Shown here: one piece after another, positions 4,658 to 25,199 of the stretch
Layout: every line of letters begins with the position of its first letter
Numbering within the stretch: position 1 is the first letter of the stretch
Assembly: GCA_944367565.1 (NCBI GenBank)
Contig: CALVWR010000003.1
Location: 1 to 64,000, forward strand
From: an uncultured Clostridia bacterium
GTDB lineage: Bacteria; Bacillota; Clostridia; Christensenellales; Borkfalkiaceae
Length of the DNA stretch: 64,000 nt
Direction of reading: 5' to 3'
The notes under the pieces: model-generated
What the model was told of the DNA's origin: nothing
Seen by the model: the letters and a program-made list of their open reading frames with translations, nothing else
The model's database searches: none
Made by a program: the position numbers and the translations under genes

Positions 4658-6194
4658 AGGGAAGAAACAGTCGGCAGAGATCGATTTTCTGCCGGGAGAA
4701 TATTGGTACGGCGGCGCCGTGAATGACGGATATTTGTTTCCGTTGTCGGCGTCGGACGAATATGAGATCGATATCGATACGAACGACACCTACTGCCAGA
4801 TCAATCCCGTATATCTCAGTTCTGAGGGGAGATATCTGTGGCTGGACGGCGGAAAGATCCGGTTCGGCGGCGGAAAGATTGTGCCCGAAACGAAGAAATA
4901 CGAATTATGCAGCGCGGGGAGCTGTCTGAAAGACGCGGCGCTCGCGGCGGCAAAGAAGTATTACCGTGCGGACGGCACGCTGCCGGACGCGAAGGCGTTT
5001 CAGGCGCCGCAGTTCTGCACGTGGATGGCGTTGGGGGAAAACCAGAGCGAAGAAAAGATTCTCGAATACGCAAAAAAGATTCTTGCAATGGGGATTCAGC
5101 CGGGCGTTCTGATCCTGGACGACGGCTGGCAGAAAGATTACGGGGACTGGAGATTTACCGAAAAGAGATTCCGCGATCCTGTCGGCATGATGCGCCGGCT
5201 TAAGGAGATGGGCTTCAAAGTTATGCTGTGGATCGTGCCGTATATTTCGCCGAAGACGGCGGCGTACGGCGAACTTTTGAAAAACGACGCACTGATCAGG
5301 GATGCAGACGGGAAAGTTTACATGGCGCACTGGTGGAATGCGGAGAGCGCCGTTCTCGATCTGACGACAAAACCCGCGCAGAACTGGCTGGAAGCGGAGC
5401 TGGAGCGGATTCGGGAAGAATACGGCGCGGACGGATTCAAAATGGACGGCGGCGACGCGATGTATCTTCCGAAGAATTATCCGCTGGCGAATTTGCAGAA
5501 CAAATTGTGGATCGACAGTTTTTCCGGATTGCGGGAAGGCAGAGCGTGTTATCAGCTGGGCGGAAAAGGAATCATACAGCGGCTGGCGGACAAGGCGCAC
5601 CTGTGGGGCGTTGAAACGGCGCGCTCCCCGGACGGCGAGACGTATCTGAAATACGGACTCAGCACCGTGATGCCGCAGATGCTGACGCAGGGGATCACGG
5701 GGTATCTGTACGGCTGTCCGGATATGGTCGGAGGAGGACTGCTGCCCGATCTTGCGGGAAAGAATCTCGATGCGGAGCTGGTTTTACGCAGTTGCGCGGT
5801 CTGTTCTCTGATGCCGATGATGCAGTTTTCACTGGATGTATGGGATCTGAAGGAATACGACGCCGGGGAAGTATGCAGGAAGTTTGTGGCGGAACGGGAA
5901 AAGTTCACGGAATATATCATGGAGCTTGCCGAACACGCGAGCCGGACGGGAGAGCCGATTGTGCGGTATATGGAATATGTATATCCGCACGCGGGTTTTG
6001 AAAAGGTGACCGATCAGATGATGCTGGGAGACAGGTACATGATCGCGTCGGTCACGGAGGCGGGGATGCGGAAAAAGGAAATCGTGTTCCCGAAGGGCAG
6101 ATGGAAAAATTGGTACAACGGAAAGGTATATGAACAGGGAAGGGCGGAAATCAGCTGTCCGCTCGACGAAATACCTTTGTTTGAAAAAATTTGA
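4635..6194 (+). CDS. GH31-like TIM-barrel glycoside hydrolase
   Basis: The 519-residue product is a retaining-type alpha-glycosidase by fold. ILDDGWQKDYGDW (near residue 157) and MLWIVPYISP belong to the barrel. GFKMDGGD (about 266-273) is the GH31 nucleophile strand, with Asp about 271. A later segment, RSPDGETYLKYGLSTVMPQ to CPDMVGGG (about 330-370), matches the C-terminal half of the barrel, but I could not place the general acid/base Asp with confidence. It has no signal peptide, so it should be intracellular. AAGGAACAG precedes the start, which lies inside the end of the DUF4838 gene, implying translational coupling. The substrate is unknown. Confidence 0.75.
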   Translation: MEKCLHTEGKKQSAEIDFLPGEYWYGGAVNDGYLFPLSASDEYEIDIDTNDTYCQINPVYLSSEGRYLWLDGGKIRFGGGKIVPETKKYELCSAGSCLKDAALAAAKKYYRADGTLPDAKAFQAPQFCTWMALGENQSEEKILEYAKKILAMGIQPGVLILDDGWQKDYGDWRFTEKRFRDPVGMMRRLKEMGFKVMLWIVPYISPKTAAYGELLKNDALIRDADGKVYMAHWWNAESAVLDLTTKPAQNWLEAELERIREEYGADGFKMDGGDAMYLPKNYPLANLQNKLWIDSFSGLREGRACYQLGGKGIIQRLADKAHLWGVETARSPDGETYLKYGLSTVMPQMLTQGITGYLYGCPDMVGGGLLPDLAGKNLDAELVLRSCAVCSLMPMMQFSLDVWDLKEYDAGEVCRKFVAEREKFTEYIMELAEHASRTGEPIVRYMEYVYPHAGFEKVTDQMMLGDRYMIASVTEAGMRKKEIVFPKGRWKNWYNGKVYEQGRAEISCPLDEIPLFEKI

Positions 6195-6207: not shown

Positions 6208-7848
6208 ATGAAAAAAATTTTAACGGTATGTTTAGCGGTTTTGCTTACGGCGGGAACGTTTGCGGGATGCAGACCCACCGTGCCGAACGGCGGACAGACC
6301 ATCGATCCGAATAAGACGCAGATCTATTTCAGCGTATGGAACGGCGGATACGGCAGTCAGTGGGCGATCGACGCGGCGCAGGCATATAACGCGACCGATG
6401 CGGAATACGAGGTCATCGTAAAACCGAATAAGGACGAATGGTATTCCATCGAGGCTTCGCTGGAAGCGGGAACGAGCAGCGTCGATATTTATCTGAACAA
6501 CCCCGATTATATCAAAGCGGACGCCATGGGTTGGTTTGAAGATCTTTCCGACGTATACGAAAGCACCCCCGCGGGGGAAGAGCGGACTGTGGGAGAAAAG
6601 ATCAAGGAACGCGATAAGGATTATTTCAATCAGATCTTCAGTGTGGACGGCAAGAAATACGGGATACCGTTTTCCGACGGATTTTCGGGATTCGTATACG
6701 ATCATGAAATTTTTCTGCAGAAAGGATATTTGATCGGCGAGGACGGAAATTGTATCACGTCGCCCGATCAGCCGTTGAGCGTGGGCAGAGACGGCGTGGC
6801 GGGTACGTTTGACGACGGACATCCGAAGAACATGGCTGAATACGACAAGATGGTCACGAAGATCAGCCGGGAGATGAAGGTTTATCTCTGGGCGAGTAAA
6901 TTTCCCTATTACGTGCTGCCGATCTTCGATTCCATCGTGGCGGAATATAACGGGGAAGATGCGTATTTTATCAACTATACGCTGAGCGGTACCTATACCG
7001 AGCCGGGAACGACGACGCCCGTCCCCGTCACGCCGGACAAGGGATATGAAGTATACAAGATGAGCGGCAGGAAAATCGCCCTCGATTTTTACGACAATTA
7101 TCTGACCAATCCGGATTACTATCATCCAGAAGCGATGGCGGGGGTTGCGAGCCATACCGACGCGCAGAAATCCTTCGTATACGGCAACGCGTTTTCGGGA
7201 CTTGCGGGAACGCAGGCGGCGTTTTTGTATGAAGGTATGTGGTGGGAGAACGAAGCGCGCGCGAACTTCAATTCGCTTTCCGGCAGCGGAAACGCCGACT
7301 ATGCATACGGAACGCGCGATTATCGCATGATGATGCTTCCCCTGTTCGACGACAAGCAGCAGGACACCGGGTATTATGCCGCCACGTTCGACATGATGTC
7401 GCTTTGCGTGACGAAGCAGACCGACGCGAAGAAGCTCGAATCCATCAAAAAGTTCCTCACGTTCTTACATTCCGACGAGAATCTCGTGGCATATACGGCG
7501 ACGACGGGCGGCGTACGGCCCTTTGAATACGAAATCGGAGAAGAGCTTTCCAGACTGACCAAGTTTGCACAGAACAACTGGGAAATGTACAATTCCGAAA
7601 ACTTCCACGTCGTGCGTTACAACGTGAATTATCTGATGAGCGATACGGCGTACAACGCGGCGAAAGTGGGGGATCTGAAAGTGGCGATGAGTACGACGTA
7701 TTTCAACAACAAGGAATACGCTTACCCCACGGACGTCATGGCGAAAGGCGACGGTCTGACGACCATCGGGAACGCGCAGCAGTATTTCGACAACGCGTAT
7801 CAGTATTATAAAAACAACTGGGACAAAGTGGAAATCGTCATCGGATAA
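6208..7848 (+). CDS. ABC sugar transporter, solute-binding lipoprotein
   Basis: This is a family 1 extracellular solute-binding protein of 546 residues. The signal peptide ends in a lipobox (TFAGC, lipidated Cys near residue 20), so the protein is tethered outside the membrane. A longer in-frame start at 6130 is rejected because the perfect site GGAGG lies 8 bases before the ATG at 6208, just after the GH31-like gene stops. At 546 residues it is long for the family, as in binding proteins for large oligosaccharides or complex glycans. It is followed by two permeases of the same system. The ligand cannot be told from sequence. Confidence 0.88.
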   Translation: MKKILTVCLAVLLTAGTFAGCRPTVPNGGQTIDPNKTQIYFSVWNGGYGSQWAIDAAQAYNATDAEYEVIVKPNKDEWYSIEASLEAGTSSVDIYLNNPDYIKADAMGWFEDLSDVYESTPAGEERTVGEKIKERDKDYFNQIFSVDGKKYGIPFSDGFSGFVYDHEIFLQKGYLIGEDGNCITSPDQPLSVGRDGVAGTFDDGHPKNMAEYDKMVTKISREMKVYLWASKFPYYVLPIFDSIVAEYNGEDAYFINYTLSGTYTEPGTTTPVPVTPDKGYEVYKMSGRKIALDFYDNYLTNPDYYHPEAMAGVASHTDAQKSFVYGNAFSGLAGTQAAFLYEGMWWENEARANFNSLSGSGNADYAYGTRDYRMMMLPLFDDKQQDTGYYAATFDMMSLCVTKQTDAKKLESIKKFLTFLHSDENLVAYTATTGGVRPFEYEIGEELSRLTKFAQNNWEMYNSENFHVVRYNVNYLMSDTAYNAAKVGDLKVAMSTTYFNNKEYAYPTDVMAKGDGLTTIGNAQQYFDNAYQYYKNNWDKVEIVIG

Positions 7849-7860
7849 GGATCAATAAAA

Positions 7861-8790
7861 ATGGGATCGAAGGTATTGAAAGAACGCAAGGGAAGAAGCA
7901 TATGGAATAAACGGACGTTGTTCATTTTCTTTATGCTTCTCTATCCTTTGGCGAATTTCATCGTTTTTTACGTCGTTATCAACGTCAACTCCGTTCTGAT
8001 GGCGTTTCAGCGTACGGATTCCAAATTCAACGCGGTTTTTGCGGGGTTCGATAATTTCGCGCGCGTTTTTGAAACGCTGGGCACAAACGGCGATCTTTTG
8101 CATTATGCGGGCAATTCACTGTTCTTTTTCTGCATCACGCTCGTCATCGGACTGCCGCTCAACATGCTGTTTTCGTATATGTTTTTCATGCGGATGCGCG
8201 GTTCGGCGTTTTTTCGGTTCTGCCTGATGCTGCCCGCCATGGTTTCGGGACTCGTTACCGCCATGCTGTATTCCAAGTTCGCCGCGTACGCCCTGCCGCC
8301 TCTTTTGAAAGACTGGTTCGGCATAGAGACGCTGAGCCTTTTAAAAGACGAACGCTATAATCGCGCGTTTTTGGTGATTTATCAGCTGTTTATCGGATTT
8401 TCCTCCAACGTCATCATCTATGCCAACGCGATGAATCAGCTCGACGACGGCATCGTGGAGGCGGCGCGGGTGGACGGCGCTTCCAACCTCCGCATTTTGT
8501 GGCAGGTGGTGATGCCCATCATCTATCCCACCATCGTGACGTTCCTGGTCACGGGGGTTTCGGGCATCTTCGCGGGGGACGCGGGCGCTTACCTCTTCTA
8601 CGAGTACAGCGGACCGGCAAACATCACCACGATCGGGTATTATATCTTCCTGCTTACGAAAAACAGCACGTCGCTGGATTACTCCTTCGCCGCGGCGATC
8701 GGACTCGTGTTCACGCTGGTCACGTTTCCGCTCACCATGCTGGTCAAGTACATCCTCGACCGTATCGATCCGTTGAGGGAGGCCGTATGA
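7861..8790 (+). CDS. ABC sugar permease, MalF/UgpA type
   Basis: This CUT1 inner permease of 309 residues has six membrane segments. The first spans about residues 19-45. The EAA loop, EAARVDGASNLRILWQVVMPI (about 200-220), docks the ATPase. It lies 12 bases after the binding-protein gene and overlaps the next permease by ATGA. No gene for the ATP-hydrolysing subunit is in the window. In many Firmicutes CUT1 systems a shared MsmK/MalK-type ATPase encoded elsewhere serves this role. Confidence 0.9.
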   Translation: MGSKVLKERKGRSIWNKRTLFIFFMLLYPLANFIVFYVVINVNSVLMAFQRTDSKFNAVFAGFDNFARVFETLGTNGDLLHYAGNSLFFFCITLVIGLPLNMLFSYMFFMRMRGSAFFRFCLMLPAMVSGLVTAMLYSKFAAYALPPLLKDWFGIETLSLLKDERYNRAFLVIYQLFIGFSSNVIIYANAMNQLDDGIVEAARVDGASNLRILWQVVMPIIYPTIVTFLVTGVSGIFAGDAGAYLFYEYSGPANITTIGYYIFLLTKNSTSLDYSFAAAIGLVFTLVTFPLTMLVKYILDRIDPLREAV

Positions 8791-9704
8791 TGAAAAAGAA
8801 GATCAGAGAAAAAAGAGTACGGCTTTTTGAACGTTCCGTAATCGGAAATCTTTTCTTCGGCGTAGCGCTCGCGGCGCTCGTCGTCATCGTGTTCGCGCAG
8901 GTGTATCCGCTCTTGTGGATGATCAACACCTCGTTCAGAACGGATATCGAGGTCTACCTCAATATGTTCGGCGCTCCCGCGGCGCTGCATTTTGAAAATT
9001 ATTCTTCCGTGTGGAGCCTGATCGGCGTGGACGTATTCATGGAAGGCTACGGTTTCGTCCGTTTCAATATCGCAAACCTTCTCGGAAACAGCGTGCTTCT
9101 CGCCATCTTCCTGCCCGTCAAGGGTACGGTATCGAGCGTGATCACGGCGTATATCATCGCGAAATATAAATTTAAAGGAAGCAATATCCTCGTCTGGATC
9201 AATATTTTCGTCATGATCCTTCCGATTGTCGGTTCGCTTCCCTCTCAGCTGAAAATTTACAATCTGCTGGGAATGTACGATAATTTCGTCATGCAGACGC
9301 TTCTGGGCGCCTCTCCGTTCGGCTTCGGACTGCTCATTTATATCGGAATGTTCCGCAATGTGCCGAACGATTATCTGGAGGCAGCCCGTATCGACGGCGC
9401 GGGGCATCTGAGAACGTTTCTGCAGATCGCATTGCCCCCGGTTTTTCCCACCGTGGCGGTGTTTTACCTGCTCGCGGTGCTGGGCAGCTGGAGCGATTAT
9501 CAGACGCCGCTTTTATGGCTGCCGTCCTATCCGAACCTCGCGTACGGAATGTTTCAGTTCCAGTACGACACGGCAAAATACGCGGCGACGTTGCCGCAGG
9601 TCATGGCGGGTTTCGTGATCGTATCCATCCCGTCGATCATCTTTTATTTCAGCAACCAGAAACTCATCACGAGCAAGATGATGGTGGGCGGGCTGAAAGG
9701 ATAA
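8787..9704 (+). CDS. ABC sugar permease, MalG/UgpE type
   Basis: The 305-residue partner permease of the CUT1 system. A first membrane segment is at about 22-48, and the EAA loop YLEAARIDGAGHLRTFLQIALP is in the expected position near residue 200. It ends with the usual MMVGGLKG-like tail. The start is ATG at 8787 (overlapping the previous stop) or the adjacent ATG at 8790; GGGAGG is properly spaced for either. An upstream in-frame opening inside the previous gene is rejected. Confidence 0.9.
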   Translation: MMKKKIREKRVRLFERSVIGNLFFGVALAALVVIVFAQVYPLLWMINTSFRTDIEVYLNMFGAPAALHFENYSSVWSLIGVDVFMEGYGFVRFNIANLLGNSVLLAIFLPVKGTVSSVITAYIIAKYKFKGSNILVWINIFVMILPIVGSLPSQLKIYNLLGMYDNFVMQTLLGASPFGFGLLIYIGMFRNVPNDYLEAARIDGAGHLRTFLQIALPPVFPTVAVFYLLAVLGSWSDYQTPLLWLPSYPNLAYGMFQFQYDTAKYAATLPQVMAGFVIVSIPSIIFYFSNQKLITSKMMVGGLKG

Positions 9705-9717
9705 AAAGGAGAAGAAA

Positions 9718-10740
9718 ATGAACGTCAGAGAGAAAAAAACAAGACGGTTCTTTGCGCTATGGGCGATATGCGTCTGCTTTGCGCTTGCGTTCGCGCCGAC
9801 AACGTTCGGGGCTGCGGAACAGGCACTGCCGCAAAGCGTAAGCGCGGAGATTTCCGCGGAACGGGTATGGTTCCCGAAACTTTCGTCCGTGGCGGAAAAC
9901 GCGGCGTATAAGATCGACCTTTTTGAAAAGGACGATACCGACTATACGTCGCCGCTGAACGAAGCGGGAAAGGAGTATTATACGTTCGCGGATGTGGGCG
10001 AGTATCTGTTGCGATACACGGTGTACGACGCGGACGGAAATCCGGAAACGATCGGCATGCCTTTTTTCGTGACCGATACGACGGCGCCGTCCATGACCTT
10101 TGAAGACGACTATAATAACGTTTACGCCGTCGGGACAACGCTGGAATTTCTGCGTCCGGCGCTGACCGACAACAATCCGGCGGGAAATCCTTCCGTCACG
10201 GTGAGCGTATCGGTGAACGGCGGGGAAGAAACGATTGCGGGAGAGAGTATGGTCATTGAAGTTTCCGGCACATACGAGATCCTGTATACGGCGGCGGATA
10301 AAAGCGGAAACGAAACGACGAGGATGTTCCGTTTCGTAACGGGGCAGGCGACGTCGGAAGATACGGTAAAGCCCGTGCTGACGGTGAACGGAACGTATCC
10401 CGAAACGGCGAAAACGGGGGAGAGTCTGACGATATACGACGCGACGGTAAGCGACAATTCCGGAGAAGCGATTGAATCGGAAATCAATATTTTTCTCAAC
10501 GGCAAGCTGCTTACTGCGGAAAACGGCAAGGTGAAGCTGACGGAAGAAGGGGTCTGTACGATCCGGTATTCCGCGGCGGATTCCGCGGGAAACGAAACGA
10601 TCATGACGGTTTACGTGACGGTGCAGGCGGGAAGCGGATGTAATTGCAGCGGCACAATCGGCGCGGAAGGCGCGATCGTGTGCGCGCTGGCTCTCGCCGT
10701 CTGCGGCGCGGTCGCGGCGGGCAGAAAGCGCAGGTCGTAA
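9718..10740 (+). CDS. Surface protein with Ig-like repeats and C-terminal membrane anchor
   Basis: A 340-residue exported protein. The signal peptide ends near AFAPTTFGAA. Three beta-sandwich repeats follow, each closing with the Ig-like signature GTYEILYTAADKSGNET or a near copy. The C terminus is GCNCSG, a hydrophobic helix (about 316-333) and a short basic tail GRKRRS, which would hold it in the membrane; no LPXTG is seen. AAGGAGAAG precedes the ATG, 13 bases after the permease gene. It is probably an envelope scaffold or glycan-binding partner of the transporter. Confidence 0.7.
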   Translation: MNVREKKTRRFFALWAICVCFALAFAPTTFGAAEQALPQSVSAEISAERVWFPKLSSVAENAAYKIDLFEKDDTDYTSPLNEAGKEYYTFADVGEYLLRYTVYDADGNPETIGMPFFVTDTTAPSMTFEDDYNNVYAVGTTLEFLRPALTDNNPAGNPSVTVSVSVNGGEETIAGESMVIEVSGTYEILYTAADKSGNETTRMFRFVTGQATSEDTVKPVLTVNGTYPETAKTGESLTIYDATVSDNSGEAIESEINIFLNGKLLTAENGKVKLTEEGVCTIRYSAADSAGNETIMTVYVTVQAGSGCNCSGTIGAEGAIVCALALAVCGAVAAGRKRRS

Positions 10741-10753
10741 GGAGGGAATGGAG

Positions 10754-13700
10754 ATGACAAATACGATGAAAAAACGGATTGTTGCCGTCCTGGCGTGTAT
10801 TGCGATCGGCGTCATTGCGCCGTCGGCAGTATGGAAGTCGTTTGCGGAGAATGCGGAAAGCGCGCCGCAATACGTGTATCGGTATACCGACACTGAAGGC
10901 GCGGGAGAAGCGACGGGCGTAAAGATCACCCTTCCCGCGAAAGAGCGGACGGCGGAATATACGTTGATGAACGATGTCGATGCGGAAGATCTGGCGGAAA
11001 ACGGGCTGAAGATCCGTATGGTTCCGCAGGATTCCGCCTCGCGGGAAGCGACGTGGATGCAGGTGACGTTTACCGACGCGGTCGACGAGAGCGAATCGTT
11101 TACGTTCAATCTGGTATACGGTACGGTGTATTGGGGCTCGACTTCGGTCTACGCCACGGTCTCGTTCACCGAAGAGATGACGTTTGACAGTTACGGCTAT
11201 GCGAAGATCAGCGGCACGAATCAGTTTGCATACGGCTACGACGCCTTTACCGGCGCGGCGGCATATACCGAATTCGGCTCGTTCCCCGTCGCGGCATGGA
11301 ACGGAGACGGCGTATTTTCCGAAACGCCGTCGAGTCTTACGTTCCACTACGACGCGGCGACGAAGGTTGCGGGCATCAACGACAGCCTCGTAAAGACAAT
11401 AGCGGATCTTGACAATGCGGACTTTCTGCGGCTTTCTTCCAAGGATCTGCCGAACGGCGAAGCGTATGCGGCGCTGAGAGAAAAGTATACGCAGGAATAT
11501 GCAGAGGGGCTTTTTTCTTCCGGGAAAGTCAGAATCAGTCTGCGGTTCGGAAACGTTTCGGGAGAGTCGGTATCTTTTCTGGTCGAATCGGTCGGCGGGA
11601 AGAGTTGGGCGGATCTGACGGAAATCGCGGACGAAAGCGGACCGGCGATCGTTGCGGAACAGAAAACGGCGGCGCTCAGAAATTTTGAATATGTTCTTCC
11701 CGTGCCGGAGATCCGCGACAACGTAGACGGGACCGTCGCGGAATACGGCGTGGCGGTGAAATCTCCCGAGGGAGAAAAAATAAGCGAAAACGAGAGCGGA
11801 TTTATTCCCGAAACAGCGGGGACGTACACGGTGGTTTACAGCGCGACGGACGCCGCGGGAAACAGAACCGAAAAGCAGATTGCGGTGGAGTGCTACGCCG
11901 TGGCGCCGCCGGTAACGTTCGGCAAGATATCGGGGGAAGAACCCGCCGCGGTGTATGAAACGTACGATACCGTACGTCTGCCGGGGTATCGCGCCGTATC
12001 CGATCTGAGTTTCGGCGCAAATATGGATGTGCTCGTCACCGTCGTGAAAGACGGCGTCACGCTGAAAACGTTTGAAGACGGCGGAAAGGAAAGCGAATAT
12101 TATGCGGAAACGGCGGGCGATTATGAGGTGATCTATACTGCCGTAAACGCGTACGGGCTGAACGTTTCGCGCACGATGTACGAATTTGTCGTGGAAGAAA
12201 AGATCAACCTGCTTATGCCGGAAGGCGCGGAAACGGTGCGTTGCGGAAGCACATATACCGTACCGAAAGTGCTGGGCGTATACCGGAACGACTATGTTCC
12301 CGCAACGTTCGACGTCGTATCGCCGTCGGGCAAGCGGGTGGACGTGAAGGACGACAGAACGTTTACGGCGGACGAACTCGGGGAATATGTGATCACCTAC
12401 AGGCACGAAGCGGACGGGAAAGCCGCCGTCGACACCTATATCGTGACGGCGGTATACACCAATGCGGAACTTTTTGTCGGAAAAGATCTGACCGTGACCG
12501 ACCACTATACCATTCCGGATTTTGCGGAACAGGCGGGGGAGACGGGCGTATTTATCAGCACTGCTTCCACGGAAGAGTTTCTGTTCGCCAACCATGTGGA
12601 CGTAAACGATATGACGAAGAACGATCTGCTGCTGCAGTTCATCCCGTATGCGGACAGCGACGTGTATGCGGAATTTGCCCTGAGTATCATCCTGACGGAT
12701 CTTTATGACGCGAGCAATAAAGTGACCATCAACGTGCATCCGCATCCGGAACAGAACGGCAACGCGACCTGGACGTATTCGTATGTAAATTACGACGGAC
12801 GGCCTTTGGCGTTCAGTTCGGAAAGCAACGATATCATGGAATCGTCGATGTACGGATGTCTGATGCTGAACAGTATGGGCGGCGGCAAGGGAATGTTTAC
12901 CAACGTGAAGCCGATTTCCTTCGGGTATGACGCTTCGGAGAAGGCCGTGTATGTCAATACCAATTTTGCGGCGGATCCCTGGTGCCTGTTGGATCTGGAT
13001 AAGATCGAACATGTCGGCGCGGGACGGGAATGGAAAGGATTCACGACCGGTGAGGTAAAATTGTCGTTCCGGGTGGAAAGCATCCGCGGAAAGGCCGCCG
13101 GCTTCATCGTTACGCAAGTGGCGGGGCACGACGTAAGCGGCGAGAGCTTGGCGCACGATTCGGTGCCGACGATTTATCCGGAAGAAAACGAGTATTTTGA
13201 GATCGTAAACGGGTTTGCGCCCGTGGCGGAAGTCGGTACGGCGTATCCGCTGATCGGCGCGCGTGCGCACGACGAACTGTTCGGAGAGGTGGCGTGCGTA
13301 TATTCCTTAAAGAAACAGGGGGCGGAAGAGGAATTATATAACAAGGTGGAAAACGGAGCGTTCACGCCGGAAGAGACGGGAATTTACGAATATACGATCA
13401 CGGCGACGAACGAATACGGTGCGAAGGCAACGTACGGGTATACGTTTGAAGTAAAAAGCACGGTGGAAGATCTCGGGTTTGCCTTTGCAACGCAGCCGGA
13501 GCAGGTGACGGCGGGAACGTGGTACACCATTCCCGCAATCGTCGTGACGGGCGGAAGCGGCAAGAAACTGACACAATATCGGGCGACGCTCAACGGGGAA
13601 GAGCTGGATATCGATGCGTTGGGCGAAGTGTATCTGTATGAAACGGGAGAATTGTCAATTCATTTAAGCGCAACGGATTTCCTCGGATCGGCAATGAAAA

Positions 13701-15151
13701 ACGATACGCTTACCGTTGCGGTAACGGGCGGGAGCGAACCGGTGATGGAAATCGCGGGCGTACCGAACGCGGCGCTGAAGGGACAGAACCTGATATTGCC
13801 CGATTTTACCGCCATGCAGTACGGAGACGGTCCGCAATCCGGCGGGACGGACGTTTACAGGGAGATCCGCGTGAACGGAGAGCGTATATTCTGGGGAACG
13901 GGAGAACAGACGGAAGGCTCCTTAATATACGGCGTGCAGGGAAGCGGATCGCTGAACGTGACCTATGCGGCGGGAACCGGAGAAGACGGGATTCTCGTGC
14001 GCGAAACGTATGTTTTGCAGATCGTGGAGGGTAATCTCGACGCCTATTTCCTGCCGTATGATCAGAGCGGCGCATACGATCCCGCGGGGGTGACGGCTTT
14101 GGTGACCGAATCCGACGTCCGCTTTACCGTTACGGAAGATAAAATCTTCCGATTTGCAAATCCCCTTGCAGCGGAAGGACTGGTGATGGAATTCGGAACT
14201 TTGGGAGAAAATTCCGCGCAGCGCGTCACGCTTGTTCTGGAAGATTATGAAGACGCGCGTCAGGTACTCCGTCTGACCTTTTATACGGAAAACGGCAAGA
14301 CCTATCTGAAAGTGAACGACGGCAGCGTGCCGATTCCGCTGAGCGGAACGCTGGGCGGGGAAAACGGAAGCGTGTATTTCCGGCTTTCCAATTTTGACAG
14401 AAAACTTTACAACAGCCTGAGCAACCTGATAACCGATCTTTCGTCGTTTGCAAACACAATGGCGTTTGAAGGATTTACGTCCGGAAAGGTGCGCGTATCG
14501 TTTGAGACGGGAGCGGGATCGCTCAGGATCGTGCGGATGGGAAATCAGTCGTTTGCGGGTGCGCAAAACGGATTTACGGATACCGTTGCGCCGCAGATCG
14601 TGTTGGCAGAGGAAATGCCCTTCTCCATGGACGCGCAGATCGATCAGGAAGTCAGGATTCCCGCGGCGGTCGCGGCGGACGTTCTGGCGAGCGAAGCGAC
14701 GGTGACGCTGACGGTGATGAGTCCTGCGGGAATGATCGTGGACGGATTGTCCGGCGTACCGTGCGACGAGGCGAGGACCGTACGGTTCGGACAGTACGGA
14801 GCATATTATATCGTTTATACGATGAGGGCGGGCAACACGACGGAAAATTACCGTTGTATTGTCAACGTACGCGACAAAGTGGCACCGGAGATCCATGTGG
14901 ACGGCGAACCGGGGACTGTGGGCAAGGTCGGCGAAGCGTTTGCGGTGCCGACGGCGCAGGTGACGGATAATCATTCCGAAACGCAACTCTTTGTATTTGT
15001 GAAGAGACCGGACGGGAAACTGGATGTTGTGACGGCGGGGGGAAGCTACACCTTTGTGCAGGCCGGCGCGCACAAACTCATCTATTACGCTTATGACGCG
15101 GAATACAACGTGAGCGTTTGCGAATACGCGATGGAGGTTTCGGAGGGATAA
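10754..15151 (+). CDS. Very large secreted modular protein with three copies of a novel module
   Basis: About 1465 residues. The start at 10754 is chosen because AGGAGG at 10740-10745 is too close to the ATG at 10748; 10766 is a further option. A signal peptide (about 1-35) is followed by module A (about 39-276), Ig-like domains, module B (about 575-790), more Ig-like domains, module C (about 1100-1270) and a final Ig-like domain. Each module contains a strand like LVLEDYEDARQVLRL and ends in FTSGKVRVSFE...MGNQSF-type sequence; two more copies occur in the protein at 18229. There is no LPXTG, SLH or C-terminal membrane helix, so it is secreted or held non-covalently. A role in glycan binding is inference from the operon. 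Confidence 0.7.
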   Translation: MTNTMKKRIVAVLACIAIGVIAPSAVWKSFAENAESAPQYVYRYTDTEGAGEATGVKITLPAKERTAEYTLMNDVDAEDLAENGLKIRMVPQDSASREATWMQVTFTDAVDESESFTFNLVYGTVYWGSTSVYATVSFTEEMTFDSYGYAKISGTNQFAYGYDAFTGAAAYTEFGSFPVAAWNGDGVFSETPSSLTFHYDAATKVAGINDSLVKTIADLDNADFLRLSSKDLPNGEAYAALREKYTQEYAEGLFSSGKVRISLRFGNVSGESVSFLVESVGGKSWADLTEIADESGPAIVAEQKTAALRNFEYVLPVPEIRDNVDGTVAEYGVAVKSPEGEKISENESGFIPETAGTYTVVYSATDAAGNRTEKQIAVECYAVAPPVTFGKISGEEPAAVYETYDTVRLPGYRAVSDLSFGANMDVLVTVVKDGVTLKTFEDGGKESEYYAETAGDYEVIYTAVNAYGLNVSRTMYEFVVEEKINLLMPEGAETVRCGSTYTVPKVLGVYRNDYVPATFDVVSPSGKRVDVKDDRTFTADELGEYVITYRHEADGKAAVDTYIVTAVYTNAELFVGKDLTVTDHYTIPDFAEQAGETGVFISTASTEEFLFANHVDVNDMTKNDLLLQFIPYADSDVYAEFALSIILTDLYDASNKVTINVHPHPEQNGNATWTYSYVNYDGRPLAFSSESNDIMESSMYGCLMLNSMGGGKGMFTNVKPISFGYDASEKAVYVNTNFAADPWCLLDLDKIEHVGAGREWKGFTTGEVKLSFRVESIRGKAAGFIVTQVAGHDVSGESLAHDSVPTIYPEENEYFEIVNGFAPVAEVGTAYPLIGARAHDELFGEVACVYSLKKQGAEEELYNKVENGAFTPEETGIYEYTITATNEYGAKATYGYTFEVKSTVEDLGFAFATQPEQVTAGTWYTIPAIVVTGGSGKKLTQYRATLNGEELDIDALGEVYLYETGELSIHLSATDFLGSAMKNDTLTVAVTGGSEPVMEIAGVPNAALKGQNLILPDFTAMQYGDGPQSGGTDVYREIRVNGERIFWGTGEQTEGSLIYGVQGSGSLNVTYAAGTGEDGILVRETYVLQIVEGNLDAYFLPYDQSGAYDPAGVTALVTESDVRFTVTEDKIFRFANPLAAEGLVMEFGTLGENSAQRVTLVLEDYEDARQVLRLTFYTENGKTYLKVNDGSVPIPLSGTLGGENGSVYFRLSNFDRKLYNSLSNLITDLSSFANTMAFEGFTSGKVRVSFETGAGSLRIVRMGNQSFAGAQNGFTDTVAPQIVLAEEMPFSMDAQIDQEVRIPAAVAADVLASEATVTLTVMSPAGMIVDGLSGVPCDEARTVRFGQYGAYYIVYTMRAGNTTENYRCIVNVRDKVAPEIHVDGEPGTVGKVGEAFAVPTAQVTDNHSETQLFVFVKRPDGKLDVVTAGGSYTFVQAGAHKLIYYAYDAEYNVSVCEYAMEVSEG

Positions 15152-15152
15152 G

Positions 15153-17114
15153 ATGAAAAAACTGATTGCTTTGGCGTTGGCGGGAATGATGCTGTTTTCC
15201 GTCGGATGCAAGAAAGACGAATCGGAACAGGGCGGCACGGGAAATTACAACGAATCTCACGGGATCGACAAGGAAGAAACGGTTGCCTATATCGTGGAGG
15301 ACGGCGTATCGGCTTATAAAATCGTTCTGCCGGACGAAACCGACGAATGTCTGGAATACGCAGGAAAGGAATTACAGAAATACCTCGAAGAGGTTTCCGG
15401 CGCGCGGCTGCCCGTCGTGAAGGAGTCGGCAACGGGCGGGCTGAAGGACATGAAATATATTTCCCTCGGGCAGACGAAACTGTTTGAGGATTGCGGATTC
15501 GGCGTGGATTTTTCGGCGTTGAACGACGTGGGGTTTGTGATGAAGCAACTCGGCAACGCGCTTTACATTGCGGGACCGGGAAGTGAAGGAACGCTCTACG
15601 GCGTGTATGATTTTTGCGAACAGATTTTGGACATTCGTTTTCTTACGCCCGAGGTCACGGTGACGGAAGAGAAAGCGACGGTTCCGCTGTATAAGATCGA
15701 CAGAACGGAGGTCCCGGCGTTCCGCGGGCGCGATTACATGGCGCAGCAGTCGATGCAGCTTAAGGATTTCACGGCGCGGCTGAAGATGAACAGCACATAC
15801 GGCGAAGTGAAGGAACAGTACGGCAACGGCGGGCGCGGGAGTTATTATGCGGGGGACGGGCATACGAACCTCGAGGTGATGCTGCCGGTCGACGAATACG
15901 GGGATACGCATCCGGACTGGTATAACAGTTCCAAAACGGAGCTTTGTTATACGAACGGGATTACGGACGACGGCGAATACGACGAGAACGATCCGGACAG
16001 CATGGTGAACGGGATGCTGGAGCGGAGCAAGGAGATCATCCTTGCAAATACGACCGACGCGAAATATCTGATGCTGGGGCAGCCCGACAACAGCGCGTGG
16101 TGCACCTGCGACAGGTGTCGGGCAAGCGATGCGAAATACGGAAAAAGCGGCACGCTGATGATCTTTATCAATACCATTGCCGAGCAGTTGGAAAAGTGGA
16201 AAAACGAAAACGGGATCGATAAGGAAATCAACGTCGTGACGTTTGCGTACTGGAAGACCATCGCGCCGCCCACGAAGGTGGAAAACGGAAAGCTCGTGCT
16301 GCGCGACGAAAAGGTCAGGGCGCGGGACAACGTGGTGGTGAAGATCGCGCATATGTCGTGTAATTACCATGCACTGTTCGATGAAGACTGCACGACCAAC
16401 GCGGAATTCAGAAATTATTTCGAAGGCTGGTCGATGGTGACGGATCGGTTCCTGATCTGGGATTATGCCACGAATTTTTCCAATCATCTGTTCTGGTATC
16501 CGAATTTCGGCAGTCTGAAAGAAAATTATCTCTACTATAAAAGCATCGGGGTGGAAGGCGTTATGACGCAGGGCGCGCCGCATGTGCATCAGTACTATCA
16601 GGCGCATCTTGAAAATTATATCGTTGCGAAACTGCTCTGGAATCCCGAAAGGGATGTAAATGCTCTCGTCGAAGAGTTCAATGCCGCTTATTTCGGCGAT
16701 TCCGCCGCGGTAGTGAACGAATTCGTGGACAGAATGAACTATCATTATGCCACGCTCGGCGGGGAAAATCATACGTTCCACACCGAACTTTACGATACGC
16801 AAGGATTTTTGTACGCGGAAAATTATCCGAAAGGACTGCTTGAAGGCGTGATGAAGCTGATCGAAGACGAGATGACGCGGGTGGAAAATACAAGCATGAC
16901 GCAGGAAGAAAAAGAGGAAAGAAACCGCAGACTGCTGGAAGTTTATATCCAGCCGCAGTATATGTATCTGTATAATTACGAAACGTACAGCGATCCCACC
17001 ACGAAACGGGATTATGCGGTGGAATTTTTCGAAAATGCCGATCGGCTCGGAATTCAGTATTACAGCGAAGGCGGCAGCATACAGAGTCTGAAACAGCAAT
17101 ATTCTATCTCGTAA
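15153..17114 (+). CDS. DUF4838 lipoprotein, extracellular paralogue of the protein at 2864
   Basis: 653 residues. The lipoprotein signal ends in FSVGC (Cys about 19). DUF4838 features are THPDWYNSSKTELCYTNG (about 252-269), LGQPDNSAWCTCDRC (about 308-322; CxCxxC) and INVVTFAYWKTIAPP. It resembles the cytoplasmic protein at 2864 over most of its length. The pair suggests one enzyme acting at the surface and one after uptake. The start follows the previous stop by one base, with GGAGG upstream. An N-terminal alpha-glucuronidase-like domain (GTLYGVYDFCEQILDIRF) precedes the DUF4838 barrel. Confidence 0.82.
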   Translation: MKKLIALALAGMMLFSVGCKKDESEQGGTGNYNESHGIDKEETVAYIVEDGVSAYKIVLPDETDECLEYAGKELQKYLEEVSGARLPVVKESATGGLKDMKYISLGQTKLFEDCGFGVDFSALNDVGFVMKQLGNALYIAGPGSEGTLYGVYDFCEQILDIRFLTPEVTVTEEKATVPLYKIDRTEVPAFRGRDYMAQQSMQLKDFTARLKMNSTYGEVKEQYGNGGRGSYYAGDGHTNLEVMLPVDEYGDTHPDWYNSSKTELCYTNGITDDGEYDENDPDSMVNGMLERSKEIILANTTDAKYLMLGQPDNSAWCTCDRCRASDAKYGKSGTLMIFINTIAEQLEKWKNENGIDKEINVVTFAYWKTIAPPTKVENGKLVLRDEKVRARDNVVVKIAHMSCNYHALFDEDCTTNAEFRNYFEGWSMVTDRFLIWDYATNFSNHLFWYPNFGSLKENYLYYKSIGVEGVMTQGAPHVHQYYQAHLENYIVAKLLWNPERDVNALVEEFNAAYFGDSAAVVNEFVDRMNYHYATLGGENHTFHTELYDTQGFLYAENYPKGLLEGVMKLIEDEMTRVENTSMTQEEKEERNRRLLEVYIQPQYMYLYNYETYSDPTTKRDYAVEFFENADRLGIQYYSEGGSIQSLKQQYSIS

Positions 17115-17118
17115 TCGT

Positions 17119-17146
17119 TTGACAGAAAAAAATAAAAGAGTATGAT
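17119..17146 (+). promoter_or_regulatory. Promoter of the SGNH hydrolase gene
   Basis: TTGACA (17119-17124), 16-bp spacer, TATGAT (17141-17146). It gives this gene transcription independent of the upstream operon. Confidence 0.7.
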
Positions 17147-17179
17147 AACAGATGCGAAGCATTCCGCTTCGCATCTGTT
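17147..17179 (+). promoter_or_regulatory. Near-perfect palindrome over the transcription start: operator or mRNA hairpin
   Basis: A 14-bp inverted repeat (17147-17160 with 17166-17179, 5-nt centre) begins directly after the -10 box and ends 20 bases before the ATG. No T run follows, so it is not a standard terminator. A repressor operator at +1 or a structure that shields the message end are both possible. Confidence 0.5.
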
Positions 17180-17198
17180 GTATATCGGGAGGAAGAAA

Positions 17199-17852
17199 AT
17201 GGAACTCAAAGGGAAAAAGATCGTGTTTTTGGGCGATTCGATTACGGAGGGCGCCTGCGCGAGCGAACAGGATAAGAATTTCGTTTCGCTGACGGGGCGT
17301 ATGTGCGGGGCAGACGTCGTCAATCTGGGCGTCGGAGGAACGCGGATTTCCAGACAGGAACGGGCGTCCGCCTGTCCGGCGTTTGACGAGGACTTTCTTC
17401 GCCGCGCAGACAAGATCGGGAAGGATGCGGACGTGATCGTCGTTTTCGGCGGAACCAACGATTACGGACACGGGGACGCGTCGCTCGGCAGTGCCGGCGA
17501 CAAGACGCCGTATACCTTTTACGGTGCGTGCAATCTTTTGTTTGAGAAGCTGAAAAATGATTTTCCGAACGCGCAGAAAGTCGTGATTACCCCTCTTCGG
17601 CGCGCCAACGAGGACGATCCTCTGGGAGATCATGTAAGGGAATTCGCCACGGCGCCGCTGCCCGTTTACGTGGCGATCGTCAAGGCCGCGGCGAAGGCAT
17701 ACGGCTATCCCGTGCTGGATCTTTACAACCTTTTCGAAACGGACGAAGAATTGCGGGAAACTTTCCGGCGGAGTGCGGACGGGTTGCATCCGGACGATTT
17801 CGGACACGCCGTCCTTGCGAAAAAAATCGTTCTTTTTTTGCAGGAATTATGA
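17199..17852 (+). CDS. SGNH/GDSL hydrolase, cytoplasmic
   Basis: 217 residues with the SGNH blocks in order: FLGDSITEG (catalytic Ser about 14), NLGVGGTRI, VFGGTNDYG, and DGLHPDDFGHA carrying the Asp-His pair. There is no signal peptide, so it acts in the cytoplasm. In a glycan locus such an enzyme is usually a carbohydrate deacetylase, but lipase or other esterase activity is possible. GGGAGGAAG precedes the ATG at 17199; a longer in-frame start at 17142 is rejected because it falls in the -10 region. A strong terminator follows. Confidence 0.85.
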   Translation: MELKGKKIVFLGDSITEGACASEQDKNFVSLTGRMCGADVVNLGVGGTRISRQERASACPAFDEDFLRRADKIGKDADVIVVFGGTNDYGHGDASLGSAGDKTPYTFYGACNLLFEKLKNDFPNAQKVVITPLRRANEDDPLGDHVREFATAPLPVYVAIVKAAAKAYGYPVLDLYNLFETDEELRETFRRSADGLHPDDFGHAVLAKKIVLFLQEL

Positions 17853-17886
17853 TCCGAGGAGATAAACGAAGCAGATAAGTCGGGAG

Positions 17887-17930
17887 GAAAAAGCCCCGCG
17901 CGTTTTTCAAAAAACGCGCGGGGCTTTTTC
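17887..17930. terminator. Terminator after the SGNH hydrolase gene
   Basis: A 21-bp perfect stem (17887-17907 with 17910-17930), GC-rich in the middle with A and T runs on the flanks. The plus strand ends in CTTTTTC. Confidence 0.85.
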
Positions 17931-17960
17931 CTGTTTTCGGGAAGAGTGCGTTTTTAAAAT

Positions 17961-18026
17961 ATATCATTATTTTAAATGTTTTAGTAGGTATATTCCATTG
18001 AATTGACAAAATAACGATGATACAAT
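17961..18026 (+). promoter_or_regulatory. Shared activator site plus promoter of the peptide/surface-protein operon
   Basis: ATATCATTATTTTAAAT (17961-17977) repeats the motif at 2769 with one mismatch. The -35 TTGAAT (17998-18003), 17-bp spacer and -10 TACAAT (18021-18026, preceded by TGA) follow, with the same 37-bp motif-to-promoter distance as at 2769. A TTGACA at 18003-18008 is too close to the -10 to be the -35. Confidence 0.6.
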
Positions 18027-18079
18027 TTAAACAAATCGAGATACGGCAGACGTCGTATCAAAGAGAGATGGAGGTTAAG

Positions 18080-18214
18080 ATGAAAGAATACTTCGCGCCG
18101 GAATTGAACCTGTTTCGTTTTGCGAAAGACGTAGTACTTGACAGTACGGGAGATCCGGAAGACAACAACGGATCCTATAACGATTGGGAAGACGGGCCTT
18201 TCGGAACTCGGTAA
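18080..18214 (+). CDS. 44-residue acidic peptide, first gene of the surface-protein operon
   Basis: The peptide begins MKEYFAPELNLFRFAKD, an amphipathic start, and continues with an acidic, Asp/Asn/Gly-rich C-terminal half (DSTGDPEDNNG...). There is no Cys, signal peptide or membrane helix. GGAGG lies 6 bases before the ATG, its own promoter is 60 bases upstream, and the next gene starts 14 bases after its stop, so it is very likely translated. From memory, peptides beginning MKKYE.PE are common in gut Clostridia and lack a known role; that likeness has not been checked. A signalling, chaperone or modified-peptide role are all guesses. Confidence 0.7.
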   Translation: MKEYFAPELNLFRFAKDVVLDSTGDPEDNNGSYNDWEDGPFGTR

Positions 18215-18228
18215 AAAGGAGAGTAAAA

Positions 18229-20742
18229 ATGGATAAGGGAATGAAAAGAAGGTGGATTTTGTTTTTTGTTGCCGTAATGGTGTGTTCCATGCTGTTCGGG
18301 TCGATGGTTTCGGTCGGCGCGGCGGGCTATGAAACGGAGGCCTTTTTCACGGCGGAGGGCGGCACGCTGACCGTTACGGAAGATTATGATTCCGGGGTGA
18401 CGGAGGGTGTAAAACTCGCCGTCACGGACGCGGGGAGCAACGGCACGGCAACGATAAAATACAACGACGTGATCTCCGCTTCCGCGCTGGGAAGCGCCGC
18501 GGTGTTTCAGGTGCTGCCTGCGGCGGCGGAGCAGGCGGATTTCGGCGCGGTGCAGATTCTTCTCCGCGACAGTGAAGACGCTTCGAAAGTCCTGTCCGTA
18601 CTGATTCAGGTCGGGGAATTTTCGGGGAGCAGAAATACCGTAGGGTTTGCGTTTTTGGAAGAGGACTTCACCAGGAACAATTACGGCGCCGCATGGTATA
18701 AGACCGCGCAGGCGGACAAACAGAGAATCTACGGCAAAGACTGGTGGATCGGAAGCGGAAGCGATACCGACCGTTATTGCGAGGACGGTACGCTGAATCT
18801 CGGTACATGGAATACGCATTATCCTTTGCTGGCGGCAGAGGAAACGACGGATACGGACGTTAAGACCTCTTTGATCACGGTATCGTATCAGGAAGCCGTC
18901 GCGTCGGTGAACGGCATAGTCCTTGCGGAACTGAAGAACGATTTTTATCAGAGCCTGAATCAGCAGAATCTGGATCCGTCGGAAGACGCATCCGTCATTG
19001 CGAAGCTGAACGACGCATACGTGGACGGTTTGTTTTCTTCCGGAAAGGTCAGCGCAGAGCTGAGATTTTTCGATATCTATAACGGATCGTTTGCCTTGAA
19101 TCTCGTGCAGCTCGGCGAACGCGTCTTTGCGAAAAGTTACGAAAACAATTTTGAAAGCACGGAAGAAATCAATTGGGATACGCAGGAAACGCAACAGGTC
19201 ACGGGGACGAAGTTTACTATTACCGACGCCCCTCTCGAACTGGGAACGATCCCCGTTTCCGCTCTCGGGAACGCGGTAACCTTCCAGCTTTTGCCGAACG
19301 GAACGGGTGACGACCTCGCTGCCGAAAACGTACTGATCACGCTGAGAGACAGCGCGGACAGAACAAAATCCGTCACCGTCATTATCGAAAAGGCGACGCT
19401 CTGGTGGGGAACCATGCACACGGCGGGATTTGTTTCGCTGGAAGAAAATACCGTGCGAGTGGGCGAAGGATGGAGAGAGTTGTCCGCGAATTCAAAACAG
19501 AAAGCCGTCGCGTATGACGGATGGCAGGGTAAGGGATATTCCGATTACGGCACGATTTATCTGGGTGCAGGCTGGGGGACGTATTATCCTTTCCTCGGCG
19601 CGGCGGAAGGTCGCTATACCAAAACCATGACGGTGTCGTATACGGGATCGCAGATTAAGATGAACGATACGCTGCTTGCCGATCTGAAGGACGACACGTT
19701 CCAGTTGAAGTCTACGGAATATCTCGATCCGACGGCGAATGCCGACATCATTGCGAAATATACCGACGAATACGTCGACAATCTGTTCTCTTCCGGCGAA
19801 GTGATCGTGGAACTTCGTTTTGAAGGGGCGATCAACGGCAGCGTGAACGTCATCTCGCTCGGCGGGGAACCGGCGGCGAATATGCAGTTCGGAGCGCTCG
19901 GCGGCAAAGATACCCTCGCTCCGACGATCACGTCGGTGACCGGCGCGGCGTATGACGCCGAAGAAAAGAGCTTCACGGTAAAGCGGGGAGAAGCCTATGC
20001 GGTCAATGCGCTCGCCACGGTTGCGGCGACGGATAACATGGACGCCGCTCCCGTTACCGGCGTGGAGGTTTACAGCGCGGCGGGCGTGAAATACGAAACG
20101 GAAACCGTTACGTTTGCGGACGGCGATTATGTGATCCTCTATGCGGTCGACGCCGACGGCAACCGCGCAGAACTGCGTGCGGCGATCGAATTTCTGCCCA
20201 CATACAGCGTGACGTATACGGACAATTCGGGTGAAAACGCCGTCGTTTCGGAAGGGGATGCTTATGTGTTCGGTACGGCGGAAAAAGAAGATCTGGTGTT
20301 TGCCGGTTGGGTGCTGGAAGGAAAACTTTATCCTGCCGGGTATGAAATCACGGTGACGGGGAATGTGGAAGTTTCCGCGCTCTTCCTCGACTTTGCAACG
20401 GCAAATGCGGAAAAGGTCGGGGAGAACACGATCCGCTACTTTACATGGATTGCCGAAGAGGATTATGCGGAACTCGAAGCGCTTGCCGAAAATCTGCAAT
20501 TCGGTACGGTGATCACCTGCGACACGAAGGCGGGACATCTCGATATTCAGACGAAAGTCTGGGCGAGCGAAAGTTCCGTTGCGGGGAGCAAAGAATACCG
20601 CGCGGCGTTCAACGATATTCCCGGAAGCATGTATGACGCGGCATTCACCGCGACGGGATATGTGATCGTAACGTATGCGAACAACGCTGCGGAGATCGTT
20701 CTGGCAAACGGGTATACCGTTTCCGTCAATCAGGCGGCATAA
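18229..20742 (+). CDS. Large secreted protein with two copies of the novel module and an InlB-like repeat
   Basis: 837 residues from the ATG at 18229 (AAAAGGAGAG upstream). A signal peptide ends near SVGAAG (about 30). Two copies of the module also found in the protein at 10754 follow (about 38-303 and 304-555), each with LRDSEDASKVLSV- or LRDSADRTKSVTV-type and YVDGLFSSGKVSAELRF- or YVDNLFSSGEVIVELRF-type sequence. Then come an Ig-like domain (about 562-655), an InlB B-repeat-like segment with FAGWVLEGKLYPAGYEITVTG (about 658-722), and a C-terminal domain containing FGTVITCDTK. No anchor is visible. It is probably a secreted binding protein of the same system. Confidence 0.72.
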   Translation: MDKGMKRRWILFFVAVMVCSMLFGSMVSVGAAGYETEAFFTAEGGTLTVTEDYDSGVTEGVKLAVTDAGSNGTATIKYNDVISASALGSAAVFQVLPAAAEQADFGAVQILLRDSEDASKVLSVLIQVGEFSGSRNTVGFAFLEEDFTRNNYGAAWYKTAQADKQRIYGKDWWIGSGSDTDRYCEDGTLNLGTWNTHYPLLAAEETTDTDVKTSLITVSYQEAVASVNGIVLAELKNDFYQSLNQQNLDPSEDASVIAKLNDAYVDGLFSSGKVSAELRFFDIYNGSFALNLVQLGERVFAKSYENNFESTEEINWDTQETQQVTGTKFTITDAPLELGTIPVSALGNAVTFQLLPNGTGDDLAAENVLITLRDSADRTKSVTVIIEKATLWWGTMHTAGFVSLEENTVRVGEGWRELSANSKQKAVAYDGWQGKGYSDYGTIYLGAGWGTYYPFLGAAEGRYTKTMTVSYTGSQIKMNDTLLADLKDDTFQLKSTEYLDPTANADIIAKYTDEYVDNLFSSGEVIVELRFEGAINGSVNVISLGGEPAANMQFGALGGKDTLAPTITSVTGAAYDAEEKSFTVKRGEAYAVNALATVAATDNMDAAPVTGVEVYSAAGVKYETETVTFADGDYVILYAVDADGNRAELRAAIEFLPTYSVTYTDNSGENAVVSEGDAYVFGTAEKEDLVFAGWVLEGKLYPAGYEITVTGNVEVSALFLDFATANAEKVGENTIRYFTWIAEEDYAELEALAENLQFGTVITCDTKAGHLDIQTKVWASESSVAGSKEYRAAFNDIPGSMYDAAFTATGYVIVTYANNAAEIVLANGYTVSVNQAA

Positions 20743-20753
20743 ATAAAAAAATC

Positions 20754-20795
20754 AAGCGCGGGCGTCCGCATCGGGACGCCCGCGCTTTTTTATTA
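20754..20795 (+). terminator. Terminator after the large secreted protein gene
   Basis: A 14-bp GC-rich stem (20754-20767 with 20774-20787), 6-nt loop and T run. Confidence 0.9.
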
Positions 20796-24338: not shown

Positions 24339-25199
24339 ATGATACGGTCTAAGGAATTTATCTATCGGGCGATAGAAGAGAGCGAATATTATAAAGTAGA
24401 TTTTACGCAATTCGGCTGGCAGAAATTCACGCCGGAAACGGAGGTTTCGCCTTGCGTGAAGAAGGATTACGTGCTGCACTTTGTGGTTTCCGGCAAAGGC
24501 ACGTACATTGCGGGAGGCCGCACGATGAGCGTGGAGAAAAATCAGATGTTTCTGCTGCGTCCCGGGGAACATGTCTTTTATTATTACAACAAATTTTTCC
24601 CTTGGGAATATTATTGGATCGGTTTCAACGGCGAAGATGCCGCCCGCCTGACTTCGGAGTTGGGATTCGGCGCAAACAAACTGGTTCTGGGCGTAAACAA
24701 CATGGACGCGGTGGTATCGATCGTGAAAGAGCTTTGTCAGCCGGACTGCGAGGATGCCGGTCCGTTTTACAGGAAGAGTCGTTTTTTCGCATTGCTGGAA
24801 ATTCTTTTTTCCAATGTGAAGAAGGAAAGCGGGCTGGAGATTACCGACAGCATGGAGCTTTACGACGCGGTGGATTACATCAAAAAGAACGTATCGGAAA
24901 ACATCACGGTGGCGACTTTGAGCAACGAGCTGTCCGTGGACAGGACGTGGCTGTTTCGGATCTTCAAGAAAAAGTACGGCGTATCGCCGAGCGAATACAT
25001 CGCGTCGTATAAACTTGAACTTGCAAAGGAATATCTCGGGGAAACGCAACTGCCCATCAAAGCCATCGCGCAGAATTTAGGCTATGAAAATTATGTAACA
25101 TTTTCCAAAGCGTATAAGAAGAAATACGGAATTTCCGCAAAGGAATACCGTGCGGAAACGATCAAATTGAGGAGCGGGAATGAAGAAGGACAGGGATAA
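24339..25199 (+). CDS. AraC-family regulator, probable activator of the sialidase/PnuC operon
   Basis: 286 residues. The N-terminal cupin sensor contains LHFVVSGKGTYIAGG (about 46-60), FLLRPGEHVFYYY and PWEYYWIGFNG (about 88-98). The C-terminal double HTH (about 185-275) contains LSNELSVDRTWLFRIFKKKYG and IKAIAQNLGYENYVTFSKAYKKKYG. It resembles the protein at 20838 in layout but not closely in sequence. Matching operators sit before its own gene and before 21986. A small ORF overlaps its last 20 bases. Confidence 0.9.
   Translation: MIRSKEFIYRAIEESEYYKVDFTQFGWQKFTPETEVSPCVKKDYVLHFVVSGKGTYIAGGRTMSVEKNQMFLLRPGEHVFYYYNKFFPWEYYWIGFNGEDAARLTSELGFGANKLVLGVNNMDAVVSIVKELCQPDCEDAGPFYRKSRFFALLEILFSNVKKESGLEITDSMELYDAVDYIKKNVSENITVATLSNELSVDRTWLFRIFKKKYGVSPSEYIASYKLELAKEYLGETQLPIKAIAQNLGYENYVTFSKAYKKKYGISAKEYRAETIKLRSGNEEGQG

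Follow-up and report, generated by a model that had tools for sequence, protein, structure and literature searches.

An unnamed, predicted all-beta module in exported giant proteins of putative Gram-positive PUL-type operons from uncultured Clostridia

Genes and features of the locus

The window analysed here, 64,000 nucleotides of an uncultured Clostridia bacterium (contig CALVWR010000003.1, positions 1 to 64,000), holds an operon that encodes, in order, a DUF4838 protein, a GH31 enzyme, a carbohydrate ABC substrate-binding protein (SBP), two permeases, a membrane-anchored Ig-like protein, the giant protein A, a DUF4838 lipoprotein and a GDSL esterase (Table 1). The second giant protein, B, is encoded alone in a transcription unit that lacks transporter genes and ends in its own terminator at 20754-20787. 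An AraC-type regulator lies at 24339-25199, several genes away. The presence of one DUF4838 protein with no signal (2864-4657) and another that is a lipoprotein (15153-17114) suggests intracellular and surface versions of one enzyme type; in the literature searched, one paper mentions DUF4838, incidentally, and no activity for it was found there or is known to us. Eleven DUF4838 match segments were counted in the 1.8 Mb genome.

The start assigned to protein A in the earlier note, the ATG at 10754, is still the best choice, with AGGAGG (10740-10745) sitting 8 nt upstream, and an alternative in-frame ATG at 10748 has poorer spacing to this sequence. From A2 onward protein A is co-linear with relatives of ~1,000 residues (type1-Ig x3-type2-Ig x2), relative to which its N-terminal type0-Ig x3 is extra. 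The last ~150 residues of B (IRYFTWIAEEDYAELEALAENLQFGTVIT...GYVIVTYANN) look like a separate unnamed domain, for which a Pfam search returned no match. Just upstream of B, a 44-residue ORF with its own start (18080-18211, MKEYFAPELNLFRFAKDVVLDSTGD...) ends near the ribosome-binding site of B; an NCBIfam search gave no match for this ORF, which may encode a small peptide on the same transcript as B. Downstream of B, a 439-residue protein (21986-23305) has a weak BNR_2 (sialidase-like) match.

Module proteins here and in relatives carry N-terminal signal sequences, and a C-terminal anchor was absent in all but one of those examined, with no SLH or LPXTG-type anchor seen at their ends; for A, we infer retention at the cell surface. 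The exception (L053:12793-17343) has a C-terminal transmembrane (TM) segment with a basic tail; its gene precedes that of the SBP, and the operon encodes a soluble module protein as well. The DUF4838 partners are mostly lipoproteins, and the loci encode a second surface protein, in some cases upstream, as an Ig protein with a C-terminal TM anchor, and in others downstream, as a Big_2 lipoprotein. Big_2 lipoproteins follow DUF4838 at L042:2499-6323, L043:13173-15551, L051:2-2263, L052:10813-14004, L056:10432-13761, L057:1-3090 and L060:11652-13232, and such operons had no upstream anchored Ig protein within the stretch read. The tail of the Ig-like protein at 9718-10740 consists of a Cys-rich CNCSGTIG, a hydrophobic stretch and RKRRS; similar CNSS, GCGSS or CSGGCSG tails occur in loci L044, L063, L064, L066 and L069, and the Cys-rich tail of these proteins may be a sorting signal.

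Table 1. Coordinates of the operon, of proteins A and B, and of their domains within the window
Feature	Position	Strand	Remarks
DUF4838 protein	2864..4657	+	PF16126 E 6.6e-50; no signal peptide
GH31 enzyme	4635..6194	+	best PDB match GH31 alpha-galactosidase 8j53, E 1e-107
Carbohydrate ABC substrate-binding protein	6208..7848	+	TIGR03850 E 2e-15, below cut-off; start inferred
Sugar ABC permease 1	7861..8790	+	PF00528
Sugar ABC permease 2 (ORF)	8499..9704	+	PF00528; true start probably near 8800
Ig-like surface protein, C-terminal membrane anchor	9718..10740	+	PF16403 E 7e-10; hydrophobic tail, then RKRRS
Protein A	10754..15151	+	exported; type0-Ig x3-type1-Ig x3-type2-Ig x2; no C-terminal anchor
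Module copy A1	10868..11641	+	subtype 0
Ig-like spacers of A, first block	11642..12448	+	weak PF16403/PF18981/OmpL47-type matches; co-linear with relatives' PF16403 matches
Module copy A2	12449..13159	+	subtype 1; strand order in model
Ig-like spacers of A, second block	13160..14020	+	all-beta in model; co-linear with relatives
Module copy A3	14021..14593	+	subtype 2, short; relatives-only profile E 6e-9
Two Ig-like domains, C-terminus of A	14594..15148	+	
DUF4838 lipoprotein, GH67-like N-terminal domain	15153..17114	+	PF16126 E 2e-52; PF03648 above cut-off; FSVGC lipobox
GDSL esterase/lipase, final operon gene	17142..17852	+	PF13472 E 3e-22
Strong intrinsic terminator between operon and B	17886..17931	+	
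Protein B	18229..20742	+	exported; type0-type0-Ig-like-other domains; own short transcription unit
Module copy B1	18319..19137	+	subtype 0; 18319..19125 without the overlap with B2
Module copy B2	19126..19923	+	subtype 0; structure modelled

Homology, subtypes and predicted fold of the module

We delimited five module copies in the window, A1, A2 and A3 in protein A and B1 and B2 in protein B, with lengths of 191-273 residues, flanks included. When A was compared with B by blastp, A1 plus Ig matched B2 plus Ig at E 9e-19. Leave-one-out profiles, built from the remaining window copies only and tested against 5,000 shuffled decoys, recovered B2 (E 3.9e-32), B1 (1.1e-17), A1 (2.5e-12) and A2 (2.7e-5), with the best decoy in these tests at E 0.002-0.05. 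A3 was missed by the profile of window copies (E 0.094 vs 0.026 for the decoy) and was recovered at E 6.1e-9 by a profile made from other genomes only. This relatives-only profile was weak on B2 (E 0.04) and A1 (0.01), so the family is joined by chains of similarity and not by all pairs. Profile-profile comparison linked subtype 1 both to subtype 2 (95.4%, E 1.8e-8) and to subtype 0 (95.3%, E 2.3e-8), the direct comparison of subtypes 0 and 2 being weak (29%). The five copies are one domain family, and the recurrence of a module in two giant proteins, as the earlier note had claimed, is borne out by the leave-one-out tests, the recovery of A3 and the profile-profile links. The shared motifs it described are approximate: the DxxD hairpin and the F-S/T-S/T-G-K/E-V strand occur in 5/5 copies, whereas the closing R-x-E is not in all of them.

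A tree of 51 modules falls into three groups, subtypes 0, 1 and 2, which hold fixed positions within proteins of 840-1,520 residues. Subtype 2 comprises A3 and 19 relatives and is always the last module (support 100/99), subtype 0 comprises A1, B1, B2 and two relatives (support 99/83), and subtype 1, A2 included, is the rest of the tree, on a weakly supported branch. By this grouping, subtypes 1 and 2 had separated before the genera sampled did, which supports the suggestion that the copies are diverged and therefore old; B1 and B2 arose more recently, by tandem duplication. The Trp content is 1.7-1.9% in subtypes 0 and 1 and 0.5% in subtype 2. The very Trp-poor composition of subtype 2 speaks against an aromatic binding face of the classical kind there, and this subtype may be a structural or docking domain.

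The description of the module as unrecognised holds, with no match in Pfam-A, NCBIfam, PHROGs or, by sequence, the PDB. Searches with a profile of the five copies turned up additional module proteins, both elsewhere in the window's own genome and in other genomes from its genus and family. Pfam CBM models did not match the module, nor did the Pfam models of concanavalin-A-like member families (LamG, GH16, DUF1080, legume lectin) match any of 21 modules, and no Ig-type profile (PF16403, Big_2, HYR, PKD) matched over the module, Ig matches being confined to the spacers. PF16403/OmpL47-type Ig domains make up the spacers between modules and the neighbouring anchored protein; the module is two to three times longer, has other conserved residues and does not match them.

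Structure prediction for B2 from 21 sequences (AlphaFold2, mean pLDDT 68.9, pTM 0.74) gave an essentially all-beta model, with a predicted sandwich of about 13 strands, core strands at pLDDT 84-95 and a disordered insert of about 50 residues (110-162). The model of A 565-1467 is low overall (pTM 0.32), and A3 within it has a B2-like strand order around the DxxD hairpin (strands 595-602 and 609-617 in the numbering of this model), with the long insert absent. In a Foldseek search of the B2 model against the PDB nothing reached E<=0.001. The best match was a 3-keto-glycoside hydratase (E 0.013, probability 0.20, TM 0.21), and the weak top matches were mostly concanavalin-A-like, namely BT2157-type 3-keto-glycoside hydratases, a GH16 endoglucanase, xyloglucanases and legume/L-type lectins. 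A search of a viral structure library gave nothing significant. The fold comparison that had been proposed thus yielded an all-beta prediction in keeping with the guess of a beta-sandwich, and a strand order shared by A3, but no significant match to a known fold.

We consider the fold class of the module probably concanavalin-A-like, as the predicted sandwich and most weak top matches suggest; unlike LamG, legume lectin, GH16 or BT2157, the module has a disordered insert and its own DxxD hairpin signature, and it matched none of them significantly. Because it did not fall within any existing family by sequence and its Foldseek match was not significant, we assigned the module to no existing family, and judged by its sequence it is a new domain family. 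The strongest conserved residues (the Asp-x-x-Asp hairpin, Gly and Phe) look structural more than sugar-site-like; neither a binding site nor a conserved aromatic platform stood out, and the only acidic residues shared without exception by the subtypes are those of the Asp hairpin. In types 0 and 1, large variable loops with aromatics sit on the sandwich core. When the A 565-1467 model was searched with Foldseek, generic multi-Ig and S-layer chains alone were returned, which do not inform the module itself.

Distribution and conserved gene order

With a 21-copy profile, the module was found in 18 of 396 sampled genomes of the same order. The window's own genome was the single match in both the phylum sample (398 genomes) and the class sample (371), in which the module-bearing genomes of the order sample are few or absent. 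Within the genomes sampled, the module family is lineage-restricted.

When module loci were mapped by homology to the window genes, permeases stood just upstream and DUF4838 next downstream in all 20. The usual order is SBP, permease, permease, module protein, DUF4838 and often then GH31, from which the window departs in that a single gene, for an anchored Ig protein, separates permease 2 from A. The exceptions are few: permease 2 is uncalled in L066, a 246-residue ORF intervenes in L050, the contig ends before the SBP in L062, and in L053 additional module proteins are encoded ahead of the SBP. By the coordinates of the whole-genome search, 32 of 40 module genes are followed by DUF4838 on the same strand, and several of the remainder either lie on contigs where DUF4838 had no match or are the second module gene of a locus. 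DUF4838 occurs in 17 of the 18 module genomes and in 60 of the 396 overall (hypergeometric 2e-14, a value inflated by shared ancestry). The gene order itself is direct evidence of the association, and this genomic context is the result that tells most about the module.

Two features by which Gram-positive PULs (gpPULs) are recognised, transport and a degrading enzyme, were looked for in these loci. For a third, a co-located regulator, the window offers the AraC-type gene that lies several genes away. Permeases stand beside the module genes in all loci examined, and an SBP was present wherever the contig reaches; the SBPs resemble TIGR03850/TIGR03851, below cut-off. Predicted degrading enzymes are GH31 in the window and GH20, GH2, GH38 and GH112 in relatives, the last as a galacto/lacto-N-biose phosphorylase (TIGR02336, 953 bits vs a cut-off of 560). 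We find it plausible that the system is a Gram-positive PUL-type operon with a new domain family.

Possible roles of the module proteins

Placement in a conserved sugar-import gene set suggests that the module is probably a surface hook for glycans, and glycan capture leads as an explanation on the strength of known ABC sugar importers and glycosidase operons together with the neighbour genes. We lean, by a modest degree, towards the reading that the module is an unnamed extracellular all-beta domain and that, within a Gram-positive PUL-type operon, the giant proteins serve as an exported component that captures glycans without being an enzyme. The guess that the module binds carbohydrate is plausible, given the sugar importer and glycosidases of the operon and the weak concanavalin-A-like lectin and glucanase neighbours of the predicted fold.

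Under this proposal, modules spaced by Ig-like domains would, close to the cell surface, hold on to a large or branched glycan, which the DUF4838 lipoprotein encoded directly downstream, plus other enzymes, would trim. The lipid-anchored binding protein and two permeases would import the fragments, and intracellular GH31, GH112, GH20 and GH38-type enzymes of the same operons could complete the breakdown. Most of the binding would fall to modules of types 0 and 1, and the short, Trp-poor type 2 may have a structural role or contact a partner protein. A more specific version, in which the modules are a new sugar-binding family and the multi-module proteins act as dedicated surface receptors that supply ABC importers with glycan, their subtypes fixed for capture and DUF4838 docking, is tentative, and we place it somewhat short of even.

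The alternative that survives best, although we judge it fairly unlikely, is that the module binds partner proteins (the DUF4838 lipoprotein, the anchored Ig protein and the SBP) and assembles a surface complex with no glycan contact. Such a scaffold would account for the tight one-to-one gene pairing with DUF4838, for the Ig-rich architecture and recurring second surface protein, and for the fixed positions of subtypes 1 and 2 with their Trp-poor type 2. Lectins often carry large variable loops on a sandwich core, however, and the aromatic-containing loops of type 0 and 1 modules resemble these; moreover, B, whose gene lies away from any DUF4838 gene, has two copies of subtype 0.

It is improbable that the proteins are adhesins or surface-layer-like structural proteins that sit in sugar operons by happenstance. 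They form long Ig-rich rods, and the longer model matched generic multi-Ig and S-layer proteins, but the strict co-occurrence with transporter and DUF4838 genes is unlike a general adhesin, as is the lack of an SLH or LPXTG-type anchor at their ends. Least probable of all is a new glycanase or 3-keto-glycoside-hydratase-like catalytic domain of concanavalin-A-like fold, which the BT2157-type and GH16 structural matches and export within a glycan operon would favour, but the active-site motif of GH16, E-[hydrophobic]-D-x-x-E, occurs in 0 of 51 modules (a loose ExDxxE once), which rejects GH16-type catalysis, and invariant acidic residues are confined to the Asp hairpin.

The glycan-capture reading can be set beside known systems. 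gpPULs, exemplified by the Blautia producta mixed-linkage glucan locus, are without dedicated surface glycan-binding proteins, a role often filled by CBMs on endo-acting enzymes (PMC10318527). The module operons likewise combine an ABC sugar transporter and its binding protein with glycosidases in one locus; they differ in that a separate exported protein, which has several modules and lacks a recognised enzyme domain, is a fixed part of the locus. An operon of this kind, found lineage-wide and coding for a large exported protein of several modules that is apparently not an enzyme, would be a testable exception to the description of gpPULs (PMC10318527). The proposed multi-domain, non-enzymatic capture of glycans at the surface, beside a transporter, resembles the surface glycan-binding proteins (SGBPs) of Bacteroidota (PMC10318527), whereas the module loci lack SusC/SusD, belong to another lineage with another transporter type, and show no sequence relation, the module having no Pfam match. 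If true, the giant proteins would be a Gram-positive counterpart of Bacteroidota SGBPs in uncultured gut Clostridia.

As a substrate class, we infer N-acetylhexosamine-containing host-type glycans; this hint comes from the neighbouring GH31, GH20, GH112, GH2 and GH38 genes and not from the module itself. Through its GH112, GH20, GH38 and GH31 neighbours, the finding may be relevant to how uncultured gut Clostridia use mucin. The module operon would also offer a first functional handle on DUF4838 and on MAG-only genomes. In another species of the genus, an in-frame TAG splits the DUF4838 gene (L050:7446-9470), which may reflect a sequencing error, a pseudogene or readthrough.
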